Virus record (IMG/VR): IMGVR_UViG_3300018890_000002 | Coordinates: 17,219 to 81,218 of that record | Length of the DNA stretch: 64,000 nt | Source: a virus | Strand: one strand, 5' to 3' | Shown: one piece after another, positions 3,166-56,637 of the stretch | How the letters are laid out: each line of letters starts with the position of its first letter | How positions within the stretch are numbered: the stretch's first letter is position 1 | Notes under the pieces: model-generated | Told to the model about the DNA's origin: nothing | What the model saw: the letters and a program-made list of their open reading frames with translations, nothing else | The model's database searches: none | Made by a program: the position numbers and the translations under genes

Positions 3166-4718
3166 TAATCTTTCCCCTCTATTTGTCTCATCTCTTTATT
3201 TATATCATTAATGACAGGTCGAATAAGTCTAGGATATATACTAGGTAAAAGTTGTCCAAAAATAACATAACATACAGCTAGAAAAGCTAATACCCCTTTT
3301 AGGTTTAACTCCTTAAAAAAACTAAGGACATTGACGTTTAATAAATCATCTAATTGGTCTTTTAACTTCTTATTACTTTCTTCTATTCTAGTTAACTTTT
3401 CTCTCATAACATTGTCTTCATTTTTCAGAAAAGCAACGTCATTGAGTAAATTATTATCATTATTATAAAAAATAGTATTATTAAGTCTACTGATTTCTTC
3501 TTCCAATTTACGAATAATTATTTCTGCTTTTATAAGTCCTTCTGGGTTAGAAGTAAGAGGATTATGAATTAACTTAGAAAAAACATCATTAGACATTTTA
3601 GTATTTTCTAAAGTCTTCAATAGTAAATCGGTTCTTCCTTCCATCTCATCTATACGAGTAGTTAAAAGAGCTTCTTGACTTTGATCGATTACAGTAGATA
3701 AAATTCTCGCTTGCCCATCTCTATTAATTAATCTATTAGACCACTTAGTATCAATGAGAGAACCGTCTTTTTTAGCTAACTTAAAATTACTAATTACACT
3801 TTCTACTTCATGAGCAATTAGTCTATAAATCTGACCTTGCATTTTAATCGAATCTTCATCATTAAAAAGATTAAGTTCAGAAATATGTTTCCCTAAAGCT
3901 ACTTCATTACTCCAACCTAACGTTTCACAAGCTTGTTTATTCCATCTACTAACTTTACAATCTTTATCCCACTCTATTTTTATAATTACACTACTGTTAA
4001 AACTATCTTCATCTAGGTTTTTAAGCTCTGTTATTTTTGAAGTCATCTCAACTTCTAAAGTAATATCTCTTAAATAACCAACAATTTTGGATTCACCATC
4101 TTTAGGTATTACACAAGAATGGTCTAATATACTAATAGCTTTTCCTGAACTATGTAGTAGTCTATACTTCTGATAAAAAGAAGATATTTTATTTTTTATA
4201 TTTTTTGCTAACTCTTTAGAGAAGAATTCTTTATCTTCAGGATGTATAAGATCCAAATAAGGTCTAGATAATAATTCTTTTTTTGTATATCCCAATAAAG
4301 AAACTACATTATCAGAAATCTCATCTATCTTCTCTTCTTTATTATTAAGCCAACGAATAAGAAATATATAATCTTCTTTAAATAGTGTCTCTGCTAATAA
4401 AGTATCGGTTTTTTCAGTTCCTACCACTACTATGTAATTCTGATATCTATAACCAGTAAAAATAATTTCTATCTCCCTTTTGTTTTGGACATCGTTGATA
4501 GTAGTAGTTATAGTATTTTCACCTTCATTAAATACTTTATCTAGAAAAGACCTGGTACTATCTGAGTAAGTGTATCCTTTAACAGTTTCAAAATTACTTA
4601 CTGCTTGATTAAGTCTATCTGTCTTATACGAAGGAATATAGTAAGTAATATTATCACTTATATATCTGTAATAATAATTCTCCCCACATTTTTCAATTAA
4701 TATACTAAAAACAACCAT
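3165..4718 (-). CDS. PAS-domain protein with C-terminal membrane segment
   Basis: 517 residues. Two PAS-like domains are visible: about 120-225 (SLLGYTKKELLSRPYLDLIHPED, the typical G-x-E-L / IHPED pattern) and about 240-350 (ETLGWSNEVALGKHI). A long coiled coil follows (350-460), then one hydrophobic helix near the C-terminus (GVLAFLAVCYVIFGQLLP). No kinase, cyclase or GGDEF output domain is present. Its place between a holin-like gene and virion genes is odd for a PAS sensor. It could be a membrane-anchored virion or lysis-timing protein; that is inference. Confidence 0.7.
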   Translation of the reverse strand: MVVFSILIEKCGENYYYRYISDNITYYIPSYKTDRLNQAVSNFETVKGYTYSDSTRSFLDKVFNEGENTITTTINDVQNKREIEIIFTGYRYQNYIVVVGTEKTDTLLAETLFKEDYIFLIRWLNNKEEKIDEISDNVVSLLGYTKKELLSRPYLDLIHPEDKEFFSKELAKNIKNKISSFYQKYRLLHSSGKAISILDHSCVIPKDGESKIVGYLRDITLEVEMTSKITELKNLDEDSFNSSVIIKIEWDKDCKVSRWNKQACETLGWSNEVALGKHISELNLFNDEDSIKMQGQIYRLIAHEVESVISNFKLAKKDGSLIDTKWSNRLINRDGQARILSTVIDQSQEALLTTRIDEMEGRTDLLLKTLENTKMSNDVFSKLIHNPLTSNPEGLIKAEIIIRKLEEEISRLNNTIFYNNDNNLLNDVAFLKNEDNVMREKLTRIEESNKKLKDQLDDLLNVNVLSFFKELNLKGVLAFLAVCYVIFGQLLPSIYPRLIRPVINDINKEMRQIEGKD

Positions 4719-12572: not shown

Positions 12573-15470
12573 ACTCTTTATTTTTGGAATGTTGCGAATC
12601 TTATCTAGTAATATAGTATTTTTATTTTGCTCATATGAGCTACTAAATTGAATATCACTACTAACAGTTCTTTCAAAATTATTAAGTTTTTCTAACATAT
12701 CATCTAATTCAGAGAGATAAGACTCGTAAGACTTTTTAATTGTTAAAACATTACTAATCTCTTTATAAGTAGAATCTAATTTTTCTATATCGCTTTCACT
12801 CCAAACTCCTTTACTATATTGATAACCCGTTTTAGCTTTATTACTTATTTCTGACCTATATAAGTTACTAAAATTCTCTAAGTTATCTACATTATCAAAC
12901 TTTTGTAATTGTCCTAAGACTTTTTCTTTTTCAGCTAAGACCTGTCTCATATAGGTTTTCTGAGTATCTATAAGAGCTGCTCTATCCGCTAAACTTGAAG
13001 AATCTAACCTTTGCTTGCTAATATTTCGTATATTATCAATATTTAATCGATTATCATTTAATTCTCTTTTAATTTTATTAACACTGCTAACTACAGAATC
13101 TAATGTTTTAGTAGCTTTACTTATAGGTTGAATAGTAGTAGGAGTATTTTTTAATTGCTCAGCTCTAGCTCTAGTATCTCTCCCTTTTAAGTTTTTATCT
13201 ACTAACCTACTTTCTTTAGATTGTCGATTATTTATATTTTGTACTTCTTTACTGAGATTTCGTTCTATATTTTTTAACTGCTTATTACTACTGTTTAATA
13301 CTTGTGTACTTTTAAGATTGTTTAATGCGTCTTCTAAAGTAATATCTTGAGGTAAATCTTTTCTATTACTAAGAATTGCTTGTTTTGCACTTATATTTAA
13401 ATTTGCATTAATATCAGTCACATTTGATTTTTTAGTCTTAGTAGTATCTAAAAACTGTCTAAGCTCTAATTCATATTTTTGTTTTGCTTCTAAATAAGAG
13501 TTATAAAGATTATCTAAATCTAATCCATCCAACTGTCCTTGTATTATTCTATCTCTTATGGTTTGGTAATCTCTCTTAGACTTTAGCACTGTACCTAATT
13601 TACCAATATATTCAGAATTATCTAATATTACATCTTTAATAGTAAAATCTAAAATCTTACCTACAGGAAATTTCTTATTAGCTAACTGGGTATCTATTTT
13701 TTTTATTACTGGGTTTTTAATGTTAGAAGTGTTGATACTACTAGGTAATTCATCTGCAAAGTCCAATATTTCTTGCATAGTATTTTCATCTAAGTTATCT
13801 ACAAAACCTTTTAATAAAGATCTTTGGTTTTCTTCTACTAAATCTGGTAAAGGTGTAAGACCTCTATTCGGGTTATAAGGATTAAGATTAGGATTGTCAG
13901 ATGTCTGTGTTCCTATATCGTTGGGAATTTTAATCTTAGGAGTAGTTTTAGGAATAGTAGGTTGAGCAGTAGGAGTTTGAGGAACTTTAACTCTATTTCT
14001 AGCTAATTTAGAATATGCAACATAAGCAATACCTACACCTAATAATCCTACTCCTCCTATAATTAATTTCTTAATAAAGGGGTCATCATAAAATGTGTCA
14101 TCTTTAACAGGATTAGCTAAACTATTTGCAACTACTTGGTTTTTTAATAGCTCAGAAACTTCACTTAGTAAACTTGGTTCTGTATCTTCTTCCTCTTGCT
14201 CTACTCCTACGAAATAACACCAACACGATACATGAAAAGGTGGAGCAGCAGAATACAACTTACCATCAGATTCAACTTCTCCATATCTAGTAGCGGTATC
14301 CGGTTTATATAGATCAGATATTAGAAATTCTTCACCATTCTTCTCTTTACAGTAAGTACAAAGAATCGGCATATAAGCTTTTTTATCTTTTGACTGATAA
14401 GCTTTCGGGATACTACCAAAAGTGTTGATAGCTATAGTTCTATTGTTCCTATTTTCAGCTTCATTTACTACTCTTACTTTTGTATAACCTAACTCTTCTA
14501 ATTTCTTTAATCTTCCTAAATTGTAAGCAAGGGATATTTCAGTCTCAGCTATTCTTTTCACTCTACCTATATTAATTAATTTATTTTTTGGGGTGGTGTC
14601 TGTTGGGTCTAATGTATCTCTAGTTAAATCTTTGAATAAAATTGATTCTCTAGTATTAGGTCTATTACCTGCAAGATTATTAAAGTATTTTTTTATACTA
14701 TTCACAATAGATTCTTTATGATCTTGAGAATATCTAGCTCCTAAGACTAAAGTTCTTTTTTCCTGGTAAATAGTACCAAACTCACTAGAATTTAATATAT
14801 CAATATCTCCAGGTCTTGATACAGTTGATATATTTCTACTAGCGATCTTAAGTTCCATATTTCTAACAGATTCTTGTAAATCTCTAGCTCTAACTTCTAC
14901 AGACTTAAACTTTTGAGTTCTTTTATCTTTACTTTTATTATCAATTGAACCTAAAAACTGGTTAAGCTGTTCACTAAGAAAATCTAGAGCTTTATCAATA
15001 TTATCTATCTCTTTTGAGTTTTGTTTAGTAGTAGGTTTACTAAGTTGTTTAGCCAACTCTTTTTCTTGTCTAGCTACCTCAATATTAATTCTTTTTAACT
15101 GCGCTCTTTGTGTCTTAGCGTCTGTAATAGCTCTTAAGACATTAGCTTCTTCATTAAAAGTAACTAAATCACGACTAGAATTGAATTTTATTTTCTTTCC
15201 TTCATTTTGAATGACATCTTTCTGACCTAACATCCAGTGATAATTCCATAACTCATCTAAAGCAGATTTAATAATAACTGTTGGAGCTTTTAAATCTTTT
15301 TCAATATCTTTTATGACTGAAGAATCTAAATTATCTAACTTTTTTTTATGAGGTGTTAAAAAACTAATATTGAATTGTTGTAACTTTTTCTCAACAGTAT
15401 TAACAAAGCTTACTAAATATTTACTATCTAGTGAGCTTTTATTCTTCTCTTTCTTCAACTTGCTTGTCAT
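12546..15470 (-). CDS. MuF-type head protein with long extensions
   Basis: 974 residues. A MuF (phage minor head) domain lies at about 300-425: RIAETEISLAYNLGRLKKLE, a CTYCKEKNGE Cys pair and PPFHVSCWCY. N-terminal to it are 300 residues of helical charged sequence. After it comes a hydrophobic helix (about 468-490, LIIGGVGLLGVGIAYVAYSKL) and then about 480 residues with coiled-coil character. MuF proteins are minor head components next to the portal. The size and the internal membrane-type helix are unusual and suggest an ejected or membrane-interacting part. Confidence 0.7.
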   Translation of the reverse strand: MTSKLKKEKNKSSLDSKYLVSFVNTVEKKLQQFNISFLTPHKKKLDNLDSSVIKDIEKDLKAPTVIIKSALDELWNYHWMLGQKDVIQNEGKKIKFNSSRDLVTFNEEANVLRAITDAKTQRAQLKRINIEVARQEKELAKQLSKPTTKQNSKEIDNIDKALDFLSEQLNQFLGSIDNKSKDKRTQKFKSVEVRARDLQESVRNMELKIASRNISTVSRPGDIDILNSSEFGTIYQEKRTLVLGARYSQDHKESIVNSIKKYFNNLAGNRPNTRESILFKDLTRDTLDPTDTTPKNKLINIGRVKRIAETEISLAYNLGRLKKLEELGYTKVRVVNEAENRNNRTIAINTFGSIPKAYQSKDKKAYMPILCTYCKEKNGEEFLISDLYKPDTATRYGEVESDGKLYSAAPPFHVSCWCYFVGVEQEEEDTEPSLLSEVSELLKNQVVANSLANPVKDDTFYDDPFIKKLIIGGVGLLGVGIAYVAYSKLARNRVKVPQTPTAQPTIPKTTPKIKIPNDIGTQTSDNPNLNPYNPNRGLTPLPDLVEENQRSLLKGFVDNLDENTMQEILDFADELPSSINTSNIKNPVIKKIDTQLANKKFPVGKILDFTIKDVILDNSEYIGKLGTVLKSKRDYQTIRDRIIQGQLDGLDLDNLYNSYLEAKQKYELELRQFLDTTKTKKSNVTDINANLNISAKQAILSNRKDLPQDITLEDALNNLKSTQVLNSSNKQLKNIERNLSKEVQNINNRQSKESRLVDKNLKGRDTRARAEQLKNTPTTIQPISKATKTLDSVVSSVNKIKRELNDNRLNIDNIRNISKQRLDSSSLADRAALIDTQKTYMRQVLAEKEKVLGQLQKFDNVDNLENFSNLYRSEISNKAKTGYQYSKGVWSESDIEKLDSTYKEISNVLTIKKSYESYLSELDDMLEKLNNFERTVSSDIQFSSSYEQNKNTILLDKIRNIPKIKSLHNIMFKD

Positions 15471-19168: not shown

Positions 19169-19240
19169 AAGTCCATAGTTTAGTAGATAGAATACGGAAC
19201 TTCTAATTCCATGACCTCAGTGCGATTCTGAGTGGACTTA
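19169..19240 (+). tRNA. tRNA-Arg (anticodon TCT)
   Basis: 72 bases fold as a cloverleaf. The acceptor AAGTCCA pairs with TGGACTT over 7 bp, with discriminator A. The D stem is short and weak. The anticodon arm has loop CTTCTAA, giving anticodon TCT at 34-36, with one C-A mismatch at the top of the stem. The T stem CTCAG/CTGAG closes the loop TGCGATT. No CCA is encoded. It reads AGA, a very common Arg codon in this AT-rich genome, so it would help translation in a host that uses AGA less. A hairpin (19140-19161) lies just upstream. Confidence 0.85.
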
Positions 19241-19947: not shown

Positions 19948-21732
19948 CTAAAAACAATATCCTAAAACTTTCTTGCCTTCTATTTTTCTAGAAGTCTCAG
20001 AACCAGGAATATATTTGAGAACATCTAACCCTTTAGCTTTTTTATCTAACCTTAAGCTGATATAAATTTCGGCTAAGATATTTTTGCAATCGTTCATACT
20101 ATAAAAAGTATTTTTCTCAAAAGTCTTTTCTAATTTATCTTTAATAACGTTTTGAACTTCTTGGCATTGAGCATATATCTCATTATTAATTTTTTTCTTA
20201 ACGTATTTTAAAGACCTAATACGAGAGATACCTAGAATTTCTACTGCTTTCTTGATTGAGTTATCAAGACTATTAATCTCAGCTAAAGTTTCTAAGTCCA
20301 ATTCACTCAATTCTTCTTTAGACATAATTTCAACATACTGCTTGAGCATTGCTTGGTAACTAATGCTAGTAGTATTATATAAGAAATCATCTTCGATCTT
20401 TTCATATTCCTGATTACCCTCAAGAGTAAAACCCGCATCAATATATCCTTGTCTAATACTTAATCCACTACTATAAATGCCGTGAATAACCTCATAGTTA
20501 AATTCTTCGTTTAGCTTTTTAAGTTCGTTGAATTCAATAGTATTGGTTTCTGAATTGTACTGAATATAAAAATCATCTAAATCTAATTGATATAGTTTTT
20601 TATAAGCTTCTTTCTCTAAATCCTCCATTTTATTATTAAACATATTAATGTGAACAAGAGTATCTTTAACTTTATTCTCTACTGTATTTTGGAATTCTTT
20701 TTCATCTAGTTCATATACTCCAGTGTTGTAGATATGGAAGATAGTATCTTTAAATGGATTATTAATGTTTCGTATCCTACCTGCAATTTGAGTAATATCT
20801 GTGGAGATGTCTAGTAGAGTATGTTTTTTACTAACTCCACTTACTACATAGATCACTCCACTATCTGAATAGAAATCAACTCCAAGGAAAGACTTAGATG
20901 TTACGAACGTGAATGGTTTATTTGGATCATGTACCTTGCTAATACCAAAATCTTCTAAGAGATACTTATTTCTATCACTTTCACCACAGATGATTTTTAC
21001 TTCATCAGGAGTTAGATTAGCATTATCTAAGATATCTTTAATAATACGAACAGAGTTAACAAAAAAATAAGCTTCATGACTAATGTGGTTTCCTATTTTT
21101 AGTTGATAGCCATTAGCTTTATATTTAGCGATAATTTTTACTACATTAGCAAAGGGAGTATTAGTCTTCTTTCTATGTAGTTTAATTTGTCTAGTTACCC
21201 ATTTAACTTCTGTGTAATCTAAGTCAGCTAATATCTTAGGAGTAAACTTTGGCTTAATAGGTGTGGCGGATAGATACGTTACATAGTTGAACTTACTAGA
21301 TTCTTCTAATAAAGTATCAATAGCTTTATCTCGGTATGAGTAGTCACTAAGTATTTTATGATACTCATCAACTAAGAGTTTGTATTCAGTATAAGCGTCT
21401 ATCTCTAATGCCTTTAACCAATTAACTGTTTTGTGCAATGAGTTATAAGTGGTAAATATTTTAATATTCGATTGATTTGCTTTAATTTGTTTAGCAAAAG
21501 TTTTATAATCCATATCTCCGTATACCCCAATAATTTGAGTGTTCTGACTCATTTTGTTACTGATAATCTCAATAGTGGGAACAGCTACAATATATGGATC
21601 AAGAGATACGGTAGCTAGAAAAGTACCTCCTACTCCAGTAGCTCCTTTGTTGAATATACCTTGAGGTAACTCCGACATGAACTCACTGAGATAGATGGCG
21701 GGGGCTGGCGCTTCGATTGTGTGAATAGTCAT
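19948..21732 (-). CDS. SF2-type DEAD-like helicase, copy 1
   Basis: 594 residues from the ATG at 21732 (MTIHTIEAPAPAIYLSEF). An in-frame ATG at 21774 overlaps a TATAAT box and is rejected; the paralogue at 40282 aligns to the later start. Helicase motifs are clear: P-loop variant GATGVGGT (about 30-37), Walker B VDEYHKIL, motif III LSATPIKP and motif VI QIAGRIRN. The C-terminal 250 residues are shared only with the paralogue and with 36249-37001. It would unwind DNA or remodel nucleoprotein during replication. Confidence 0.8.
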   Translation of the reverse strand: MTIHTIEAPAPAIYLSEFMSELPQGIFNKGATGVGGTFLATVSLDPYIVAVPTIEIISNKMSQNTQIIGVYGDMDYKTFAKQIKANQSNIKIFTTYNSLHKTVNWLKALEIDAYTEYKLLVDEYHKILSDYSYRDKAIDTLLEESSKFNYVTYLSATPIKPKFTPKILADLDYTEVKWVTRQIKLHRKKTNTPFANVVKIIAKYKANGYQLKIGNHISHEAYFFVNSVRIIKDILDNANLTPDEVKIICGESDRNKYLLEDFGISKVHDPNKPFTFVTSKSFLGVDFYSDSGVIYVVSGVSKKHTLLDISTDITQIAGRIRNINNPFKDTIFHIYNTGVYELDEKEFQNTVENKVKDTLVHINMFNNKMEDLEKEAYKKLYQLDLDDFYIQYNSETNTIEFNELKKLNEEFNYEVIHGIYSSGLSIRQGYIDAGFTLEGNQEYEKIEDDFLYNTTSISYQAMLKQYVEIMSKEELSELDLETLAEINSLDNSIKKAVEILGISRIRSLKYVKKKINNEIYAQCQEVQNVIKDKLEKTFEKNTFYSMNDCKNILAEIYISLRLDKKAKGLDVLKYIPGSETSRKIEGKKVLGYCF

Positions 21733-21772
21733 AAATTTTGAGAGGGAATATATTTTAGTTGTGTCTACTATC

Positions 21773-21778
21773 ATTATA
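21773..21778 (-). promoter_or_regulatory. -10 box for helicase gene
   Basis: TATAAT reads on the minus strand at 21778-21773, 41 bases before the chosen start. No good -35 is visible, so it may need an activator. Confidence 0.45.
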
Positions 21779-31577: not shown

Positions 31578-31642
31578 TTCTCAGACTCAATGGTGAGAGA
31601 TAGTGCAATCATTATCTACTAGGTTCGATCCCTAGCTGAGAT
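31578..31642 (+). ncRNA. tRNA-like element A, odd anticodon arm
   Basis: TTCTCAG pairs with CTGAGAT over 6 bp next to a canonical T arm CTAGG-TTCGATC-CCTAG. A short D-like arm CTC-AATGGT-GAG has the usual GG. The middle stem is GATAG/TTATC with an 8-base loop TGCAATCA instead of 7. About 65 bases in all. It may be a degenerate tRNA or a tRNA-shaped processing signal; it is not a standard tRNA. Confidence 0.55.
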
Positions 31643-31989: not shown

Positions 31990-32045
31990 AATCTACAGCC
32001 AATAGGTGGCTACTAAGTAATTAGGTTCGATCCCTAAGTAGATTA
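31990..32045 (+). ncRNA. tRNA-like element B, no anticodon arm
   Basis: AATCTAC (31990-31996) pairs perfectly with GTAGATT (32038-32044), then A as a discriminator-like base. D-like arm AGCC-AATAGGT-GGCT and T arm TTAGG-TTCGATC-CCTAA are both well formed. Only TACTAAGTAA-type single strand lies where the anticodon arm should be. 56 bases; cannot decode. A hairpin CCCAAT/ATTGGG follows (32048-32066). Confidence 0.65.
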
Positions 32046-37882: not shown

Positions 37883-38175
37883 TTTTCTATCGCTCAAATT
37901 GGAGCTTTGAAGATACAGCGAAAAAAGCACCTTACTGCATCTACCAACAATTATGGTACGGAGAATTTCCCTACGGAACTTGGTCTTGAGCGATTCGTAA
38001 ATGTTTAGTAACTCAAGAAGTCAAAATATCAATGATTTGTACTGACATTAATCCATGAGGTTTAAGTGATTCTGATTATTGGGTAGAAAAGTGTAAGAGT
38101 TACGTTCCTGAGAGTATATCTGCTGATTTAGTAGCTACTAATATTTTCCACACTCTAAAACTAGCTAACTCTTAG
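37879..38175 (+). pseudogene. Start-less gene with two in-frame TGA codons
   Basis: The frame from 37879 reads SFEDTAKKAPYCIYQQLWY...YGTWS, TGA (37987-37989), AIRKCLVTQEV...CTDINP, TGA (38056-38058), GLSDSDYWVEKCKSYVPE...KLANS, TAG. The composition (Trp, Tyr, Cys, acidic) is protein-like across both stops, and Trp would fit both positions. No start codon was found. Either a decayed gene or a readthrough product. Confidence 0.5.
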
Positions 38176-38226
38176 AGGAAATATTTAACTTCTGAGAGTT
38201 ACTAGGTGCAATCCCTAGAGAGTGTT
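38150..38226 (+). ncRNA. tRNA-like element C
   Basis: ACACTCT (38150-38156) pairs with AGAGTGT (38219-38225) over 7 bp, stacked directly on a T arm CTAGG-TGCAATC-CCTAG (38202-38218). Total length about 76, as in a tRNA. A D-like CTAG/TTAG stem is possible, but no regular anticodon arm can be drawn. The 5' strand overlaps the end of the broken gene at 37879-38175. Confidence 0.45.
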
Positions 38227-40254: not shown

Positions 40255-40281
40255 ACATTTATAGTTTAAAATGTGTCAACC

Positions 40282-42066
40282 ATGAAATATCAGATTCAAG
40301 CTCCAAGTAATGCTCTTTATGTTAGTGATTTCCTAAGTGAAATTCCTAAAGGGATAATTGACAAAGCAGCGACGGGGGTAGGTATGAGTTCTATTGCTTT
40401 AGAAGATAAATATCCTACTATTATTGCTGTTCCTACTATTGAAGTGATTAGAAACAAAACTGCACAATATCCTAATGACAGACGTTCTGAATCTGTTTTC
40501 GGGTACTATGCAGGAGTAAAAGATAAAAGCGTAATTGAGTATCTTAATTCTACTGCAATTCCTAAGATTTTAGTAACTTATGATAGTTTTTATAAGGTGG
40601 CTAAACTAATAGACAAGACTATTTATCGAGTAGTTGTAGATGAATTCAGTGATTTACTAGATGCTTACAGCTACAGAGATAAAGCTATTGAACATTTACT
40701 ATCAGCAGTCCAAGATTTTGAGTATGTATCTTACATCTCTGCTACTCCATTAAAAGAAGAGTATTATCCTGAAGCTCTTAAAGGTTTAGATGAGTATGAA
40801 ATAGTTTGGCAAGGTTCAGTAAAGATTAAAGTTGAGAGAAAAAAGACAAATAAGCCTTATAAATTAGCTTGTAACATCATTGAAGCCTATAAAGCAGGAG
40901 GAAAAGAGGGGTTATTAATGCCTAATGGTCACTATTCTAAGTCTGCTTACTTTTTTGTTAACTCGGTTAACTCAATTGCAAGTATTTTAGAAGCTTCAGA
41001 ATTAGAACCTAGTGAAGTGAGAGTAATTTGTGCTAATAACGAGGTAAACCAGAAAAAATTAGAAAATTATCCCATTGAAACTGCTTTAGCTCCTGAGAAA
41101 AAGTTTAATTTTATTACCAGTACAGCTTTTAAAGGTTGTGATTTCTACTCTGAAAGTGGGGTTACTTACATTATTAGTAACACTTCTAACAGCAATACCT
41201 TAATTAGTATTGATACTGATGTTAAACAAATTGCAGGAAGGATTCGTAACTCTAATAACCCTTTCAATAACCACATTTACCACATCTATAATACTGATAA
41301 TTCACTTTTATCGGCTGAAGAGTTTGAGAAATTAGTTAAAAAGAAAACAAAAGCTACAGAATCCACTATTTCTCTATTTTATAAAGGTAATGAAGAAGAA
41401 AGAGAAACTTATTTAGCTAATTACTATTTAAGAGCTAAGTGTAAATTTAGAGATGACGACTATACTTACCTCACTGATGAGAATAATATTATCTTTAACC
41501 ACTATGCGGTATTAAATGATAAGCGTAGATGGGAAGTTAGTAGTAATGTATATAGAGATGGAGTTTCTATTCGAGAAGCTTATCTTAAAGCAGGATGTTT
41601 TGATATTTCTACTTATCAAGATTTTGAGAAAATAGAGGATAATGGCTTTTTAAATAAGCTTACTAATGGCAGCTTTAAGGAGTATTGTCTAAAATATATC
41701 AACAACACTGAAGAAAGAAGCTATATAGGTGATAGATTTCCAGTAATTAAAGAAGCATTTAGTCGACTAGGTGCTGATAGAATGAAAGCTTTAAGTTATA
41801 ATCCTTCAAGATTTCTATCTGAGATGCAGGTTAATTCAGATTCTACTCAAAACTACATAATTAGAGATTTAGAAAACACACTTGTAGTAGGACAAGAATA
41901 CCTTTCAGCAGAAATAAAGGCTATGTTCAATAATATTTATTATGCAGTGGGGATAAAAAAGAAAGCTAAAGCTACTGATATTGAGGCTTATTGTGACATT
42001 GAGAAAAAACAAAGAAGATTTAAAGGTGTTCTTAAAAATGTAATTGAGATTAAAGCTTGGAAATAA
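40282..42066 (+). CDS. SF2-type DEAD-like helicase, copy 2
   Basis: 594 residues from the ATG at 40282 (MKYQIQAPSNALYVSDF), the point where it aligns with copy 1. Motifs: P-loop variant AATGVGMS, Walker B VVDEFSDLL, motif III ISATPLKE, motif VI QIAGRIRN. Copies 1 and 2 are similar over their whole length but well diverged, so both are maintained. Monocistronic: own promoter before it and a terminator after it. Confidence 0.8.
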   Translation: MKYQIQAPSNALYVSDFLSEIPKGIIDKAATGVGMSSIALEDKYPTIIAVPTIEVIRNKTAQYPNDRRSESVFGYYAGVKDKSVIEYLNSTAIPKILVTYDSFYKVAKLIDKTIYRVVVDEFSDLLDAYSYRDKAIEHLLSAVQDFEYVSYISATPLKEEYYPEALKGLDEYEIVWQGSVKIKVERKKTNKPYKLACNIIEAYKAGGKEGLLMPNGHYSKSAYFFVNSVNSIASILEASELEPSEVRVICANNEVNQKKLENYPIETALAPEKKFNFITSTAFKGCDFYSESGVTYIISNTSNSNTLISIDTDVKQIAGRIRNSNNPFNNHIYHIYNTDNSLLSAEEFEKLVKKKTKATESTISLFYKGNEEERETYLANYYLRAKCKFRDDDYTYLTDENNIIFNHYAVLNDKRRWEVSSNVYRDGVSIREAYLKAGCFDISTYQDFEKIEDNGFLNKLTNGSFKEYCLKYINNTEERSYIGDRFPVIKEAFSRLGADRMKALSYNPSRFLSEMQVNSDSTQNYIIRDLENTLVVGQEYLSAEIKAMFNNIYYAVGIKKKAKATDIEAYCDIEKKQRRFKGVLKNVIEIKAWK

Positions 42067-42279: not shown

Positions 42280-42501
42280 ATGCAGACTAAAAGATTAAAT
42301 TGGCAAACCCAACAGATAAAAGATTGGCTTGATTACAGTGACATTTCCACTTCTTGTAAAACTTCTGCTCAATTAGAATGGGAAGTAGTAGATAGATTTT
42401 TAGTTAGAGATTGTCCGACTCCATTAGATAGAGTAAAAAATGCTGCTATGCAAGAATTATTTGCAGAAGTTGAATGGAGTGAATTAGTGTTTAAATTCTA
42501 G
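42280..42501 (+). CDS. Small protein, unknown
   Basis: 73 residues, ribosome site AAGGAGTCCATT. Two Cys, several Trp, acidic tail (LFAEVEWSELVFKF). First of a run of small genes to 54 kb. No family recognised. Confidence 0.5.
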   Translation: MQTKRLNWQTQQIKDWLDYSDISTSCKTSAQLEWEVVDRFLVRDCPTPLDRVKNAAMQELFAEVEWSELVFKF

Positions 42502-42543
42502 TCCGCAATGACATTAAACTAATACTTAGCTAAGGAGAATCAA

Positions 42544-45280: not shown

Positions 45281-45351
45281 TCTCAATTATTCTCAGATTT
45301 TCGTTTGTGTCCGCAACGACATTAAACTATTAATTAATTTAGGAGGGTATT

Positions 45352-46441: not shown

Positions 46442-46480
46442 AGCTAGATGTAGGGTGCAATTCCCTACAAAACATCAGCT
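46442..46480 (+). ncRNA. tRNA-like element D, acceptor/T-arm minihelix
   Basis: AGCTAGATG and CATCAGCT pair (8 bp, one bulged A) around TAGGG-TGCAATT-CCCTA, with a CAAAA bulge on the 3' side. The D and anticodon arms are absent altogether. It has the same T-loop-like core as elements C and E. It lies about 90 bases before the hammerhead candidate. Confidence 0.45.
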
Positions 46481-46667: not shown

Positions 46668-47444
46668 ATGACTAATATTATATTTTCTCCCCTTCAACAG
46701 AGAGATGTGGAAATCCGGTTTATTTGTCATGAGGGATTCACCATAACTACGACCAATGAAAAGTACCAGTTTGTGAGAAATATTCTAACCGTTCTTCAAG
46801 AGCAAGAGGGTCTTCCGTTAGAATATGCTAGTGAGAACGAAGGAATGAAGATTGCGGGTATCTCCAAGATAGTGTTTGGTTTTGTTCCCGATTTTATTAT
46901 AGATGAAAAAGATGGACTACCCCCACGCTTAGAAAATCACTTCGTCATACCTGGCTACCGAAAAGTCGGGTCTAATGTAGTCAAAATGAAAGCACTGGCC
47001 GAACAAGTAGCAGAGAAGTTACGAACGTTCCAATTAAAGGTGGAGGTAAACAGCGAAAGTTCTATTCATCCCAAAATGGATGAAGAGACAGAATTTGTTT
47101 ATACAGTAATGATCACATCCGTTGCCTTGGAGGTGGCTAAGGTGAATAAAAACCATCCGATCTGGAGTGGTATTCCTGCATTAAACCGAATCACTTTGAT
47201 GAGTGGAGAGTTCGAGGCAATGCGAGCAATGATAGCTGAAACTCCACCAGTTCTTCAAGCTGTATGTACTCTATTTGAATCTTATACTGAAGAGGTTAAA
47301 AACGCGATCGATACTTGCGAGAATTTCAAAGAGGAGTACGACTCTAATGAACCTGTACCACATATCAGCAAATTACAACTTAGACGACCAACGAAAGAAG
47401 TTATGGAAATGTTGAAACTTCTTCAAAGTCATCACAAATCGTAG
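46668..47444 (+). CDS. Unknown protein before MoxR/VWA pair
   Basis: 258 residues from the ATG at 46668 (MTNIIFSPLQ), after TAAAGG; an ATG at 46611 lies inside the ribozyme and is rejected. Mixed alpha/beta; ends in a helical, basic tail. Richer in G+C than the small genes around it, like the MoxR and VWA genes, so it may belong to their system. Confidence 0.6.
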   Translation: MTNIIFSPLQQRDVEIRFICHEGFTITTTNEKYQFVRNILTVLQEQEGLPLEYASENEGMKIAGISKIVFGFVPDFIIDEKDGLPPRLENHFVIPGYRKVGSNVVKMKALAEQVAEKLRTFQLKVEVNSESSIHPKMDEETEFVYTVMITSVALEVAKVNKNHPIWSGIPALNRITLMSGEFEAMRAMIAETPPVLQAVCTLFESYTEEVKNAIDTCENFKEEYDSNEPVPHISKLQLRRPTKEVMEMLKLLQSHHKS

Positions 47445-48252: not shown

Positions 48253-48368
48253 TCTTCCACCTCTATTATGATTGGTTGTTGTGATAGAGGTTTTGCTTTA
48301 CCTCTAAGACTAGCCATAAAAGTCTTAAATAAAGTAGTCCGCTCAATAAATATAGAAGGATCATCCAA

Positions 48369-49472
48369 ATGTCTCTAATTCTCCCTGAAATCAAAACGGC
48401 ACTTGCTGGGTTCGTTAAGTGTGACTTAGTAGCTGAGGTTATATCTCTTGGCTTACAACTAAGAAAACCCGTGCTACTCTATGGTCGAGGAGGTCATGGA
48501 AAATCAGAAATAGTGAGAGCAGTCTTTAAAGCGCTGGCAAAGAGTGACGACGAATGGTTCATCCAATCTTGCGGGGAAGGGATGACAGAAGCTATGCTCT
48601 ACGGAGGGTTAGATCTGGATGCTCTTTCCCGTCCAGAAGGAAAAACAATGCAGTATTACCCTGAGCGGTCATTTTTAAATTACAAATACTCTCTTCTTGA
48701 AGAGTTTAATGATGCACCACCAGCAGTTCTTCTGTCGTTGAAAAATACAATCACAGCCGGACAGCTAGACAATGGTTATCAGACTTTCGAGATGAAAACG
48801 CTCTTATTGATTGGGGCTACCAACAAAAATCCAATGGAGATTTGCGAGATGGGGCCTACCTACGAAGCGTTAATGGAGAGGTTTCCTCTACAAGCTCGTG
48901 TAGAGTGGTCAAGTTACAGAAGAGAAGATTTTCTGGAATTGTTTAACACAGTGGAAAAAGAAGATACTGTTCCTTCTCAAATGCGTTCATTATTGGCGCA
49001 GTTAATTTCGGATGCCCACGATAAAGGGCAATGGATCAGTCCTAGAACTGCCATTGTTTGTCTAAATCTATTGAAAGCATCAGCAGTCCTTCACAAACGT
49101 AAACAGGTAACTGAAGATGACTTTTTTGCAATAAAGCACATCCCTGGTACAGAGCAAATCTTAGAAGATCTCAGTACGAATCTAGATTGTATTAAGAGAG
49201 TTGCTATAGCTCAATTACAATTAGCTGAGCATGATGAACACTTAACTGAGGTTTTGTCTAAAATGACTCAGTACGAACAGAATAAAGCAATCAAAAATAG
49301 AGAGAAAGCAATCTTGTTCTTACAACTTTCTACCGTTTTAGAGAATTTAGACCAAAAATTACAAAACCTTAGCCTCCCTGACAATCTAGTTAGACATAGA
49401 GATCAACTTAGGGAGAAAATTAAGGAAGGTCATGAAAGAGCTATTAAATTAGCTAGACAATTCTCTGCTTAA
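48369..49472 (+). CDS. MoxR-family AAA+ ATPase (CobS-like)
   Basis: 367 residues. Walker A GRGGHGKS (39-46), Walker B LLEEFNDAP (about 116-124), sensor 1 LLIGATNKNP (about 149), then a winged lid with SPRTAIVCLNLL. The C-terminal 90 residues are coiled coil. MoxR ATPases act as chaperones that remodel a partner through a VWA protein. That partner lies 58 bases downstream. Similar pairs, often called CobS/CobT-like, occur in large phages including cyanophages, with an unknown target. Confidence 0.85.
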   Translation: MSLILPEIKTALAGFVKCDLVAEVISLGLQLRKPVLLYGRGGHGKSEIVRAVFKALAKSDDEWFIQSCGEGMTEAMLYGGLDLDALSRPEGKTMQYYPERSFLNYKYSLLEEFNDAPPAVLLSLKNTITAGQLDNGYQTFEMKTLLLIGATNKNPMEICEMGPTYEALMERFPLQARVEWSSYRREDFLELFNTVEKEDTVPSQMRSLLAQLISDAHDKGQWISPRTAIVCLNLLKASAVLHKRKQVTEDDFFAIKHIPGTEQILEDLSTNLDCIKRVAIAQLQLAEHDEHLTEVLSKMTQYEQNKAIKNREKAILFLQLSTVLENLDQKLQNLSLPDNLVRHRDQLREKIKEGHERAIKLARQFSA

Positions 49473-49500: not shown

Positions 49501-49530
49501 ACTAACCTACAAATTTATAAAGAGAAAATT

Positions 49531-50907
49531 ATGACTACTATTAGAACTACTGCACCACAAACCTATATCCCCCCCTCTCCTTCGGATATTAGGGCAATGG
49601 CTAGAGAAGTAGGTGTCTCTAGATACGATACTTCTTTAGTACAAGATTTGTGTAATATTCAAGCTGGGGGAGAATTCACTTCCACTATACAAATAGAGAA
49701 AGAATTAACTAAAAATATTACTAAAATCAATAGGGAACTAAAAAAGGATAGCGATGGTGATTACGAGTTTCGTGGTAAGTGGTTAAAGAGTGAAAGTGGA
49801 AATTATGTATCAAATATAGATGATGCTCAAGCTATTGTTGCTAAACAACAAGTTAAGTATCATAAAAGTATTCAAGACTTCATTAGAACGTTAGACTTTT
49901 CCAATATTCCCGGATATACACCACTTGAGCGGTCATTAGGACTATTGAAATTACTTTCTTCTCAAGAAGGGGGTTCTCCAGAAGATAGTCAAGATGATGA
50001 GTGTGGGGATGTTTTACCAATTTTTAGCGAAAATAATGAAGACAGGAAAGATCCCAAAGAATTAGCTAATCAAATTAATGAGGTACTAGAAAATATCTCA
50101 AACATGGACGAACACGAAAAGATCCTGTGTAATATTACAGGGGATGGCAATAACATTCCACTAGATCTTGCCTCCGACATGATGAACGGTAAAGATGTAA
50201 TGTTGAAAATAAAAAGAGAGCTTGATAAAGTTTGTGCTTTGCAGACTACTAAACATTGTGTAATGAAACCTGACTCTAATGGAGCAGAGGTACGATATAG
50301 GTCTATTCAGGATATTTCCGAGTTTCCAAAATTGCATCCAACCGAATTTATCTATCCAGATGCTTACAAGAATTATAGATTAGTCAATGGAATTGCTCAA
50401 ATAAGAGAGCGATGTTCCAAAATAGACAAGAAAATGCTGTTGTATATAATTTGTGATTGCTCAGGTAGCATGAGCAACGAACGTTTTTTGAAAGCGGGAG
50501 GAGTAGTGATGAACCGTCTCAAAGCGGTTCTAAGAGGTGAAGCTGATCTTTGGTTAGCCTTTTTCCACAATCGGTTAGGAGAAGAGTTTAGAGCTTCTTC
50601 GGAAAATATCTCTGAAGTGAAAAAACTGATGAGTCATATTAAGGCTTCCAATTTTGATCAAGGAGGCACAAACATTGCACGTTGTACTAAAGAAGCAATT
50701 TTAAGGATTGAGAAAAAAAGAAAGCAAGACCCTAAGTTAATAGCTCCAGAACTATTGGTAATTACTGACGGTAGAGACAATACATCTTCTCTGACTGTAG
50801 GACATTTACGTGGTGTACGACTTAATACAGTAATAGTAGGTGGGCATAATCAACATTTAATTAACGTATCTCGACAAAGTGGGGGCGTGGGTATATCTCG
50901 TATTTAG
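49531..50907 (+). CDS. VWA-domain protein (CobT-like)
   Basis: 458 residues. The C-terminal third is a von Willebrand A domain: MIDAS DCSGSMS (about 309-315), the Thr in DQGGTNIARC (about 379) and TDGRDN (about 411). The N-terminal 280 residues are helical and charged, with an acidic Ser/Asp stretch near 150-165. It would bind metal and tether a substrate for the MoxR ATPase encoded just before it. Confidence 0.85.
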   Translation: MTTIRTTAPQTYIPPSPSDIRAMAREVGVSRYDTSLVQDLCNIQAGGEFTSTIQIEKELTKNITKINRELKKDSDGDYEFRGKWLKSESGNYVSNIDDAQAIVAKQQVKYHKSIQDFIRTLDFSNIPGYTPLERSLGLLKLLSSQEGGSPEDSQDDECGDVLPIFSENNEDRKDPKELANQINEVLENISNMDEHEKILCNITGDGNNIPLDLASDMMNGKDVMLKIKRELDKVCALQTTKHCVMKPDSNGAEVRYRSIQDISEFPKLHPTEFIYPDAYKNYRLVNGIAQIRERCSKIDKKMLLYIICDCSGSMSNERFLKAGGVVMNRLKAVLRGEADLWLAFFHNRLGEEFRASSENISEVKKLMSHIKASNFDQGGTNIARCTKEAILRIEKKRKQDPKLIAPELLVITDGRDNTSSLTVGHLRGVRLNTVIVGGHNQHLINVSRQSGGVGISRI

Positions 50908-50957: not shown

Positions 50958-51251
50958 ATGTTTCAACAACCTAACATCTACCCTTTAGTACCACAGAAGG
51001 TAAAAAGTCTTTTGAGACAAATCCAAGGAGTTACAATCCCTCATTTTATTAAGGGAGAAAACATCGAAGTCTTAGCTGATATCCAAGTAGTTCAAGTTGA
51101 TGATGTAGTAATTCCTATCTATCCTACAATAGAGGATGCTTGGGTGGATGTAGTATATGATTGCTGGATTGAAGTGGGAAAAATTGATTCCCCACAGATT
51201 GAACAATTAGCTACTGATAAAATTTTGACCCCAACTTGGTGGACTCATTAA
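50958..51251 (+). CDS. Small protein, intact paralogue of 44288-44611
   Basis: 97 residues, ribosome site AGGAGATTACT. Reads VPQKVKSLLRQIQG, HFIKGENIEVL, TIEDAWVDVVYDCWIE and ends TPTWWTH; the broken gene at 44288 follows the same order. Probably a phage-specific family. Function unknown. Confidence 0.6.
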   Translation: MFQQPNIYPLVPQKVKSLLRQIQGVTIPHFIKGENIEVLADIQVVQVDDVVIPIYPTIEDAWVDVVYDCWIEVGKIDSPQIEQLATDKILTPTWWTH

Positions 51252-51275
51252 TAAAAGAGAGTAGATAATTGCTCT

Positions 51276-51338
51276 CCTCAGAAGTTTAGCTATTAAAAGT
51301 TTCGTAGCTTTTAATCCTAGTGCAATTCTAGGCTGAGG
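51276..51338 (+). ncRNA. tRNA-like element E, no D arm
   Basis: CCTCAG (51276-51281) pairs with CTGAGG (51333-51338), stacked on T arm CCTAG-TGCAATT-CTAGG. The middle arm TTAAAAG/CTTTTAA (7 bp) has an 8-base loop TTTCGTAG. The 11 bases AAGTTTAGCTA replace the D arm. About 63 bases. It precedes the gene at 51383. Confidence 0.55.
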
Positions 51339-51382
51339 TTTTCTTATGGTGAAAATTGTATTCCCATAAGATATATTAGAAA

Positions 51383-51727
51383 ATGATCAAACCCGTTAAT
51401 TCCGCAGTCATTCATATATTGAGTGAATACTACATCAAAGTTGATTTAGGAGTTCGTTTATCCCAAGATAATTGGGACGAACTTTTTAAACTTCCTAAGT
51501 CATGTGCAGGTGTTTCGCTACAACATCCCAACAAAGCTCTTAAACAGACATGGTTTGGATTCGAGGTAAGATTCAACGCTTGCTGGAGTTACAAAGTAAT
51601 TTCCATGTTTCTATTTGACACTTTGAAAATGATCAAAGAGATTGAAACTATCCGTATCAATAACAAAGTTGAAAATAATGACGCAATTCATGATTGTCGC
51701 TCATTTCGCTCACCAATCGCTCTATAG
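51383..51727 (+). CDS. Unknown small protein
   Basis: 114 residues starting MIKPVNSAVIHIL; a Trp/Phe-rich centre (TWFGFEVRFNACWSYK). No clear ribosome site; start chosen as the first ATG after the tRNA-like element. No family recognised. Confidence 0.5.
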   Translation: MIKPVNSAVIHILSEYYIKVDLGVRLSQDNWDELFKLPKSCAGVSLQHPNKALKQTWFGFEVRFNACWSYKVISMFLFDTLKMIKEIETIRINNKVENNDAIHDCRSFRSPIAL

Positions 51728-55788: not shown

Positions 55789-55815
55789 ACACTTAACTAC
55801 AAGTTGGTGAATAAA

Positions 55816-56637
55816 ATGACAATTCAGATGGTACAGAAAGAAGTCGATGGGATTGAGTTTTATGTTTCTATTGATGGAATTCAAAGCGGAATGAGTGAAA
55901 GTGGGTTAGCGAGGTTATGCGGAGTAAATAGGTATGCAATTCAAAATTTAATAAAAAGAATTAATGACCCTGCCAACAAAGAGCTACCTAAAACCTTAGA
56001 ACCGTTTACTGGTAAAGCTTTGGAGATGCAGGAGACTGCCAATAAAGATCAAGCTAAAGTAATATCTTCAGATTTATGTGCTGCGATAGTTGAGTATTAT
56101 GCTTTTGAAAGTAAGGCTGCTAATGATACTGCAAAGTTCTCATTTAGAAAATTTGCTAGTAAGGGAATGGATTTATGGATAAAAGAAGTTACTGGTTATC
56201 AAATAAATCAAATTCCAGATTCTAAGGAAATAGTGTCGTTATTGCAGCAGCTACTAATTAAAGTGGATGGGTTAGAAAAAGACTCTAAAGAATATAAAAA
56301 TTTGAGAGGTAGAAGTGTTCAAGTTTTTCCTGCTTTAGATAAAACTTTAGAAGAATTTGTAGTGGAAGGTGAGTCTTTATCTGAAGTAGATCCTCAAAAT
56401 TACACTTTGACAGAGTGGATTAATAAAACTAAGAGAGGAGTAGTATTAGATAATTCTGCTAAACATAGGTTTGCATTACTGGTATCTGAAACATATAAGA
56501 GTGTTACAGGTAAGGAACCTAAAAAAGAACACCGACAACATAAAGAAACTAAGAAGAGAACTAATAGTGTTTCAGTTTATAGCTATACTGAACTTCCTAT
56601 TCTTCAATTAGCTTGGAATAAATTGTTTAATTTGTAA
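55816..56637 (+). CDS. Antirepressor-like regulator, copy 1
   Basis: 273 residues from the ATG at 55816; TTG and GTG upstream are weaker. An N-terminal HTH-like region (MSESGLARLCGVNRYAIQNL, about 25-45), a central part (AAIVEYYAFESKAANDTAKFSFRKF) and a C-terminal part (HRFALLVSETYKSVTGKEPKK...) match the plan of 61882-62643. The layout resembles phage antirepressor or KilA-type regulators, and similar proteins are common in cyanobacteria, but no fixed family name is safe. Confidence 0.6.
   Translation: MTIQMVQKEVDGIEFYVSIDGIQSGMSESGLARLCGVNRYAIQNLIKRINDPANKELPKTLEPFTGKALEMQETANKDQAKVISSDLCAAIVEYYAFESKAANDTAKFSFRKFASKGMDLWIKEVTGYQINQIPDSKEIVSLLQQLLIKVDGLEKDSKEYKNLRGRSVQVFPALDKTLEEFVVEGESLSEVDPQNYTLTEWINKTKRGVVLDNSAKHRFALLVSETYKSVTGKEPKKEHRQHKETKKRTNSVSVYSYTELPILQLAWNKLFNL

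Follow-up and report, generated by a model that had tools for sequence, protein, structure and literature searches.

In the tRNA punctuation and the t-elements of mitochondria, tRNAs or tRNA-like folds lie between the genes of a polycistronic RNA, and RNase P and RNase Z cut the RNA at these folds. Mitochondria also have D-armless tRNAs, in which the D arm is missing and a short linker is found instead, and these tRNAs decode. T-even phages carry tRNA-like RNAs that have acceptor/T-like halves without being ordinary tRNAs, and in T4 these lie within a tRNA cluster. Among the substrates of RNase P are tRNA-like folds in RNAs of phages and operons, and the non-tRNA substrates described for it include M3 RNA, the C4 antisense RNA of P1 and P7, the gene 32 mRNA of T4 and operon mRNAs (PMC11143913); these are single cases, which do not form a serial intergenic module with UU and a 3′ hairpin. 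The tRNA-like domain of tmRNA has an acceptor, a T arm and a reduced D region, and the halovirus HF2 has an atypical tRNA-like gene next to an integrase that was proposed to be an attachment site (PMC8707807). In the open-licence literature that we searched, we found no description of phages with a series of intergenic tRNA-like modules.

Here we describe a tRNA-like element without a D arm in the window, i.e., the whole 64-kb stretch of DNA that was analysed, which belongs to an 81-kb virus record (G000) and encodes a terminase and a major head protein. We suggest, with a probability of roughly 45%, that this element is one copy of an intergenic tRNA "punctuation" module at which RNase P and RNase Z of the host would cut phage mRNA. 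All 16 non-tRNA elements that we find in this phage and its relatives are intergenic and on the coding strand, where intergenic sequence makes up 11% of the total, and like the mitochondrial t-elements they are tRNA-like folds on the sense strand between co-oriented genes. The differences are that they occur in a DNA phage, that they are not working tRNAs, that a UU-hairpin unit is attached to them and that their cleavage is predicted. They share with the T4 RNAs the acceptor/T-like half, but are scattered between protein genes and not gathered in a tRNA cluster; the search descriptor used below has a match in T4 at 70933, close to the T4 tRNA genes, which we assume may be one of the known tRNA-like species of this phage. 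Unlike tmRNA, the element has no tag frame, no mRNA-like part and no encoded CCA. In contrast to the gene of HF2, the elements described here are many, differ from each other and lie in operons, and no integrase was seen among the few proteins that were searched.

The first-pass annotation had called the locus a tRNA-like element lacking a D arm, which is correct, and the element is indeed located in a phage. The acceptor strands are contiguous with CCTAG-TGCAATT-CTAGG, so that acceptor and T arm stack as had been described. The middle arm is also present, but it comprises 8 bp (10 in the minimum-energy fold; loop 4–8 nt) and not 7 bp, and the count of 11 bases in place of the D arm is valid if the arm is taken as 7 bp and drops to 10 otherwise. 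The acceptor has 6 bp, the seventh pair of which would be U-U, and the T arm retains G53-C61 and has G at position 55. In the segment that replaces the D arm, UAG is found where GG is usual. The minimum free energy of the element is −18.2 kcal/mol (z −2.9), and 2 of 200 shuffled sequences fold equally well; taken alone, the fold is thus only moderately beyond chance. The 17-nt T arm also occurs in tRNAs from other viral contigs.

Table 1. Positions of the features discussed, numbered in the window unless another genome is named.
Feature	Position	Strand	Details
Ordinary tRNA-Arg(TCT)	19169..19240	+	T loop TGCGATT (G55), AG in D loop
Sibling	31579..31641	+	three arms: D arm (GG), middle arm of 7-8 bp closed by 4 nt, T arm with loop TTCGATC; UUCCC hairpin follows
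Sibling	31990..32044	+	D arm, no anticodon arm, TTCGATC T loop, then UUCCC hairpin
Sibling without D arm	38150..38225	+	ACACTCT-AAAACTAGCT-(13-bp arm)-T arm TGCAATC
Stop codon TAA of upstream ORF	51249..51251	+	97-aa ORF 50958-51251, from the ORF list
Leader hairpin GAGAGTA/TGCTCTC	51257..51276	+	directly 5′ of the element; from the fold of the whole gap
tRNA-like element without D arm	51276..51338	+	63 nt
Acceptor, 5′ strand CCTCAG	51276..51281	+	pairs with CTGAGG 51333-51338
D-arm replacement AAGTTTAGCT	51282..51291	+	unpaired, 10 nt
Middle arm ATTAAAAG/CTTTTAAT	51292..51315	+	strands 51292-51299 and 51308-51315
T arm CCTAG-TGCAATT-CTAGG	51316..51332	+	stem 51316-51320, loop 51321-51327, stem 51328-51332
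Acceptor, 3′ strand CTGAGG	51333..51338	+	abuts T arm directly
TT at positions 72 and 73, then UU at 74-75	51339..51342	+	U-U mismatch (72) and discriminator (73); UU = 51341-51342
3′ hairpin TCTTATGG...CCATAAGA	51342..51371	+	z −4.3; counterpart in most siblings
Start codon of next ORF	51383..51385	+	ORF 51383-51727; 43 nt past acceptor register
Element of Planktothrix phage PaV-LD (HQ683709)	gap 14800-14887		CGACCG-CAGGTTAGCCCCTGA-CTGGG-TTCGATT-CCCAG-TGGTCG, then UUCCC-GAAA-GGGA

Neither ARAGORN nor Rfam (RF00005) calls the element, and the ordinary tRNA-Arg(TCT) is the only call of these programs in the whole window. We considered several known classes. The 5-bp T arm with a 7-nt loop stacked on the acceptor is that of a tRNA, but a functional tRNA is rejected, as there is no 7-nt anticodon loop on a 5-bp stem and the middle arm has 8–10 bp. 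A tmRNA is likewise rejected, since the element measures 63 nt, has neither a tag reading frame nor a pseudoknot region and is not called as a tmRNA by ARAGORN. No terminator-like site (stem and U tract) is found at the element, which speaks against an intrinsic terminator, and a promoter is unsupported.

Searches with terminase and capsid led to G001, a contig of 130 kb whose terminase is 84% identical, to G002, a contig of 151 kb (70%), and to fragments. A fourth relative of 57 kb (G012) was found by its von Willebrand A (vWA) protein. The contigs G003–G011 hold the structural region and do not cover the genome part in which the elements lie, so that the absence of elements from them is uninformative. 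By capsid, the nearest isolates are the Pseudanabaena phages PA-SR01 and Pam2 (~30% identity, E 3e-39), and this distant similarity suggests that the host is probably a filamentous cyanobacterium. A host search of genome contigs with capsid and terminase found nothing. We also note two paralogous helicase-like proteins of ~600 aa (19948-21774 and 40273-42066), which have about six regions matching by tblastn in G001 and for the second of which no PHROGs family was found; a BstA-like protein at 55804-56637 (PHROG 6287, E 1.6e-10), a gene of abortive-infection type; and a 37-bp repeat, GTCCGCAAYGACATTAAACT..., the two copies of which (42501-42537 and 45309-45345) are 84% identical and lie upstream of short ORFs, where they are perhaps a shared leader.

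The element begins 24 nt 3′ of the upstream stop codon, compared with 5–16 nt for about half of its siblings, in a gap of 131 nt between two same-strand ORFs, and the entire gap folds with a z of −3.7. The leader hairpin is not a constant feature of the sibling elements. For the proteins encoded on either side (50958-51251 and 51383-51727) no relatives were found in IMG/VR, and this copy therefore lacks an orthologue for comparison; when phage records were searched with the locus by BLAST, there were no matches either. Upstream of the element, a MoxR-type AAA ATPase (48369-49472) lies beside the vWA protein (49531-50907). This pair is conserved in G002 and has no PHROGs match, and no element was found beside the vWA orthologues of G002 and G012.

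To find further copies we used a descriptor that asks for a 5-bp T stem with G-C at the loop, for T[G/T]CRANN in this 7-nt loop and for 6 or more pairs in a closing stem, the 3′ strand of which must abut the T arm. There are 20 matches in the 419 kb of the four related genomes (G000, G001, G002 and G012), as against none upon reversal and 0.45 on average over 20 second-order shuffles, and from these counts the family of tRNA-like elements is clearly real. In G000, G001 and G002 the descriptor finds real tRNAs and many short elements, and G012, which was fetched after the rules had been chosen, has 4 closed elements in 57 kb (reversed 0). The enrichment is lost when the loop is relaxed to NNCNANN (62 matches vs 46 reversed) or to any 7 bases (881 vs 924), from which it follows that the signal depends in part on the identity of the T loop. 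When nine further phages (1.12 Mb) were searched, there were 5 matches that ARAGORN does not call, and 0 upon reversal; of the five, two are located within or next to tRNA clusters and one lies inside an ORF. A scan of IMG/VR for the exact T arm returned six contigs, which is near chance expectation by our own estimate, and of which three have clear cloverleaf tRNAs and one has a good tRNA-like fold. The scan with one degenerate position mostly returned permuted tmRNAs.

What all the elements have in common is the acceptor/T half, while the presence of the D arm and of the anticodon arm varies, even from one orthologue to another. The D arm is absent in the element at 51276 and in that at 38150, the orthologue of which lies at 49505-49575 of G001. 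The element at 48343 of G001 resembles the one at 31990 in having kept the D arm and lost the anticodon arm, and at 47049 of G001 merely a 14-nt loop separates acceptor and T arm. The comparison with functional D-armless tRNAs of mitochondria, which had been drawn at first, is therefore not upheld: those tRNAs decode, the present element has neither an anticodon loop nor a CCA, and there are siblings in these genomes whose missing arm is the anticodon arm and not the D arm. The shape without a D arm represents one form of an intergenic module in which only the acceptor/T half and, as we infer, the elbow contact are preserved. Beyond the T arm, the elements have a common register of seven bases and one discriminator base followed by UU, which is present in 15 and absent in two of 17 elements (TT frequency 0.12, binomial p ~1e-12, although some elements are orthologous and hence not independent). 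In 16 of the 17, pairing of the 3′ hairpin starts 1–4 nt past position 74, and in three this hairpin is weak. An intergenic gap of the window has a T-arm-like hairpin without an acceptor stem (GTAGGG-TGCAATT-CCCTAC, 46450-46470), possibly a degenerate member.

The order of the module is a stop codon, a reduced tRNA-like fold, a discriminator-UU-hairpin unit, and then the next gene with its ribosome site and its start codon. In a polycistronic mRNA, RNase P of the host would recognise the acceptor/T stack and the elbow and cut 5′ of the acceptor, and RNase Z would cut past the discriminator, promoted by the UU. The upstream cistron would in this way obtain a free 3′ end near its stop codon, the downstream mRNA would obtain a new 5′ end consisting of UU and a protective hairpin, and the tRNA-like RNA would be excised without having a role in decoding. 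Both enzymes recognise the acceptor/T stack and the elbow, with the anticodon arm being dispensable, and a hairpin at the extreme 5′ end protects bacterial mRNAs. The UU at 74-75 agrees with the preference of RNase Z for U near the discriminator, as the B. subtilis enzyme is stimulated ~200-fold when a U lies no further than 2 nt past it (PMC10100781). Together with the RNase P precedents cited above, these matches make punctuation the best-supported mechanism. It is not a general cutting signal, since most intergenic gaps in the window lack an element. Against punctuation stand the missing CCA, which bacterial RNase P usually uses, the 6-bp acceptors with U-U at 1-72 that several elements have, the leader hairpin directly 5′ of the acceptor at 51276, and the two elements without UU and the three with a weak 3′ hairpin. 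That a lineage of DNA phages relies on such serial punctuation, with freely evolving tRNA mimics splitting its polycistronic mRNA and downstream 5′ hairpins protecting it, is a more tentative proposal, to which we give rather less credit than to the reading of the single copy.

About half of the 17 elements start 4–16 nt past a stop codon. Such a position would also suit an element that stays on the upstream mRNA as a cap, comparable to the tRNA-like ends of plant viruses, blocking 3′ exonucleases and possibly receiving a CCA. The CCA-adding enzyme and EF-Tu also see the acceptor/T half, i.e., the part that is kept. We consider this unlikely, though deserving of attention: a cut at the discriminator would be required in any case, and it would not be explained why hairpin and start codon follow at a fixed distance.

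Gain and loss of tRNAs are common in phages, and this lineage has genuine tRNAs in which the unusual G55/AG elbow is also present, so the elements could be conceived as degenerate tRNA genes that have lost arms and have no function. The comparison of orthologues, of which four pairs could be aligned, argues against such decay. Between 24070 of G002 and 30181 of G012 (acceptors TGCCCAA/TTGGGCT vs ACTTAAA/TTTAAGT), both partners have changed in four acceptor pairs and in one T-stem pair; the hairpin downstream is almost the same in the two, and the anticodon arm is present in one member and absent in the other. Double changes are also found in the acceptor and T stem between 22235 of G002 and 26993 of G012, in the T stem between 24372 of G002 and 30624 of G012 (C-G to A-T), and in the middle arm between 38150 of the window and 49505 of G001 (C-G to G-C). 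Acceptor and T stems have thus been kept through compensatory double changes, as is seen for a half under selection, and decay is partly refuted already. It would furthermore not place the elements on the coding strand just past stop codons, followed by UU and a hairpin, and outside clusters, and the acceptor should break as often as the anticodon arm, although here the descriptor itself selects intact acceptors. We therefore regard decay as quite improbable.

The next start codon lies 37–54 nt past the acceptor in most elements (~40 nt), and this narrow distance could indicate a 5′-UTR element whose folding controls the access of ribosomes to the downstream gene. As this would explain neither why the fold is specifically tRNA-like nor the T-loop rules and the covariation in the elbow, we think it a shade more improbable still.

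The covariation concerns position 55 of the T loop, which in tRNAs is U or pseudouridine. G55 is found in the element at 51276, in the tRNA-Arg of the window and in cloverleaf tRNAs of other viral contigs. Of the tRNAs in the viral loci that were retrieved, 40 of 43 with U55 have GG in the D loop, and 5 of 6 with G55 do not have it (Fisher p 1.7e-4); as the loci were partly picked by the TGCAATT arm, the share of G55 does not reflect a natural frequency, but this choice did not force the association with the D loop. The same holds for the short elements (U55 with GG 11/11, G55 without 5/6, p 1e-3), the D regions of which were delimited by hand. When AAGTTTAGCT is compared with the sibling D regions AAAACTAGCT and AAAATCAGCT, the G55 cases carry AG: UUUAGC at 51276, UAGC at 38150 and CAGC in the orthologue of the latter. 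The simplest reading of the covariation is that A18-G55 replaces G18-U55 and that G19-C56 is retained, in which case the linker would still form a tRNA elbow without a D stem.

With the elbow contact apparently conserved, a free excised RNA would resemble the elbow of a tRNA, and the product itself could matter, with tRNA-binding proteins or host defences directed at tRNAs taking it as a decoy or substrate; it is known that phages counter defences that cut tRNAs by means of tRNAs. Anticodon nucleases, however, usually target the anticodon arm, which here is the most variable part or is absent, and the intergenic architecture would not be explained, which makes this reading highly unlikely in our view. 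Chance folding, finally, deserves next to no credence: it fits the modest z of the single element, but is refuted for the family by its enrichment over reversed and shuffled sequence and by the compensatory changes.

The module is also found in an isolate, the Planktothrix phage PaV-LD, where the unannotated element lies a few nt past a stop codon. BLAST of this element gave a full-length match in PaV-LD itself only. PaV-LD is a cultured system that carries the module, and the idea is therefore directly testable.

Other tRNA-like RNAs were observed among the viral contigs. Two contigs, L041 (minus strand, ~317) and L049 (minus strand, ~7511), have a second, GC-rich kind of D-armless element, GCCGGTG-GCAAGCGTTCG-GCTGC(TTCGTGG)GCAGC-AAAAC-CCGAG(TGCAATT)CTCGG-CACCGGC, with a normal anticodon-type arm of 5 bp and 7 nt. 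L025, L061 and L067 share a conserved AGTGAGA-TAGATCTAACGA-CCGAG TGCAATT CTCGG-TCTCACT, in which 12 nt and no other arm lie between. On the minus strand of L053 (~3530-3620), an acceptor and a T arm resembling those of tmRNA, GGGGGTGAATAGGTCGACGAG ... CACCTCCACCA, are found within ~90 nt, with a CCA end and beside 13 tRNA genes; this may be one half of a tmRNA or a mini tmRNA-like RNA. Permuted tmRNA genes with a TGCAATT T loop, as in the element at 51276, occur in L009, L015, L026 and many others, which are contigs of pelagiphage type, and the tags given by ARAGORN for them include ANNNFAMAA and ANESYALAA.

If the punctuation reading is correct, it would extend to bacterial viruses a form of tRNA punctuation that is known from mitochondria. 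It would also show how little of a tRNA, namely the acceptor, the T arm and the elbow contact, persists when there is no demand for decoding. The elements further suggest that a class of structured RNAs in phage genomes escapes annotation pipelines, as these ask for a complete cloverleaf.
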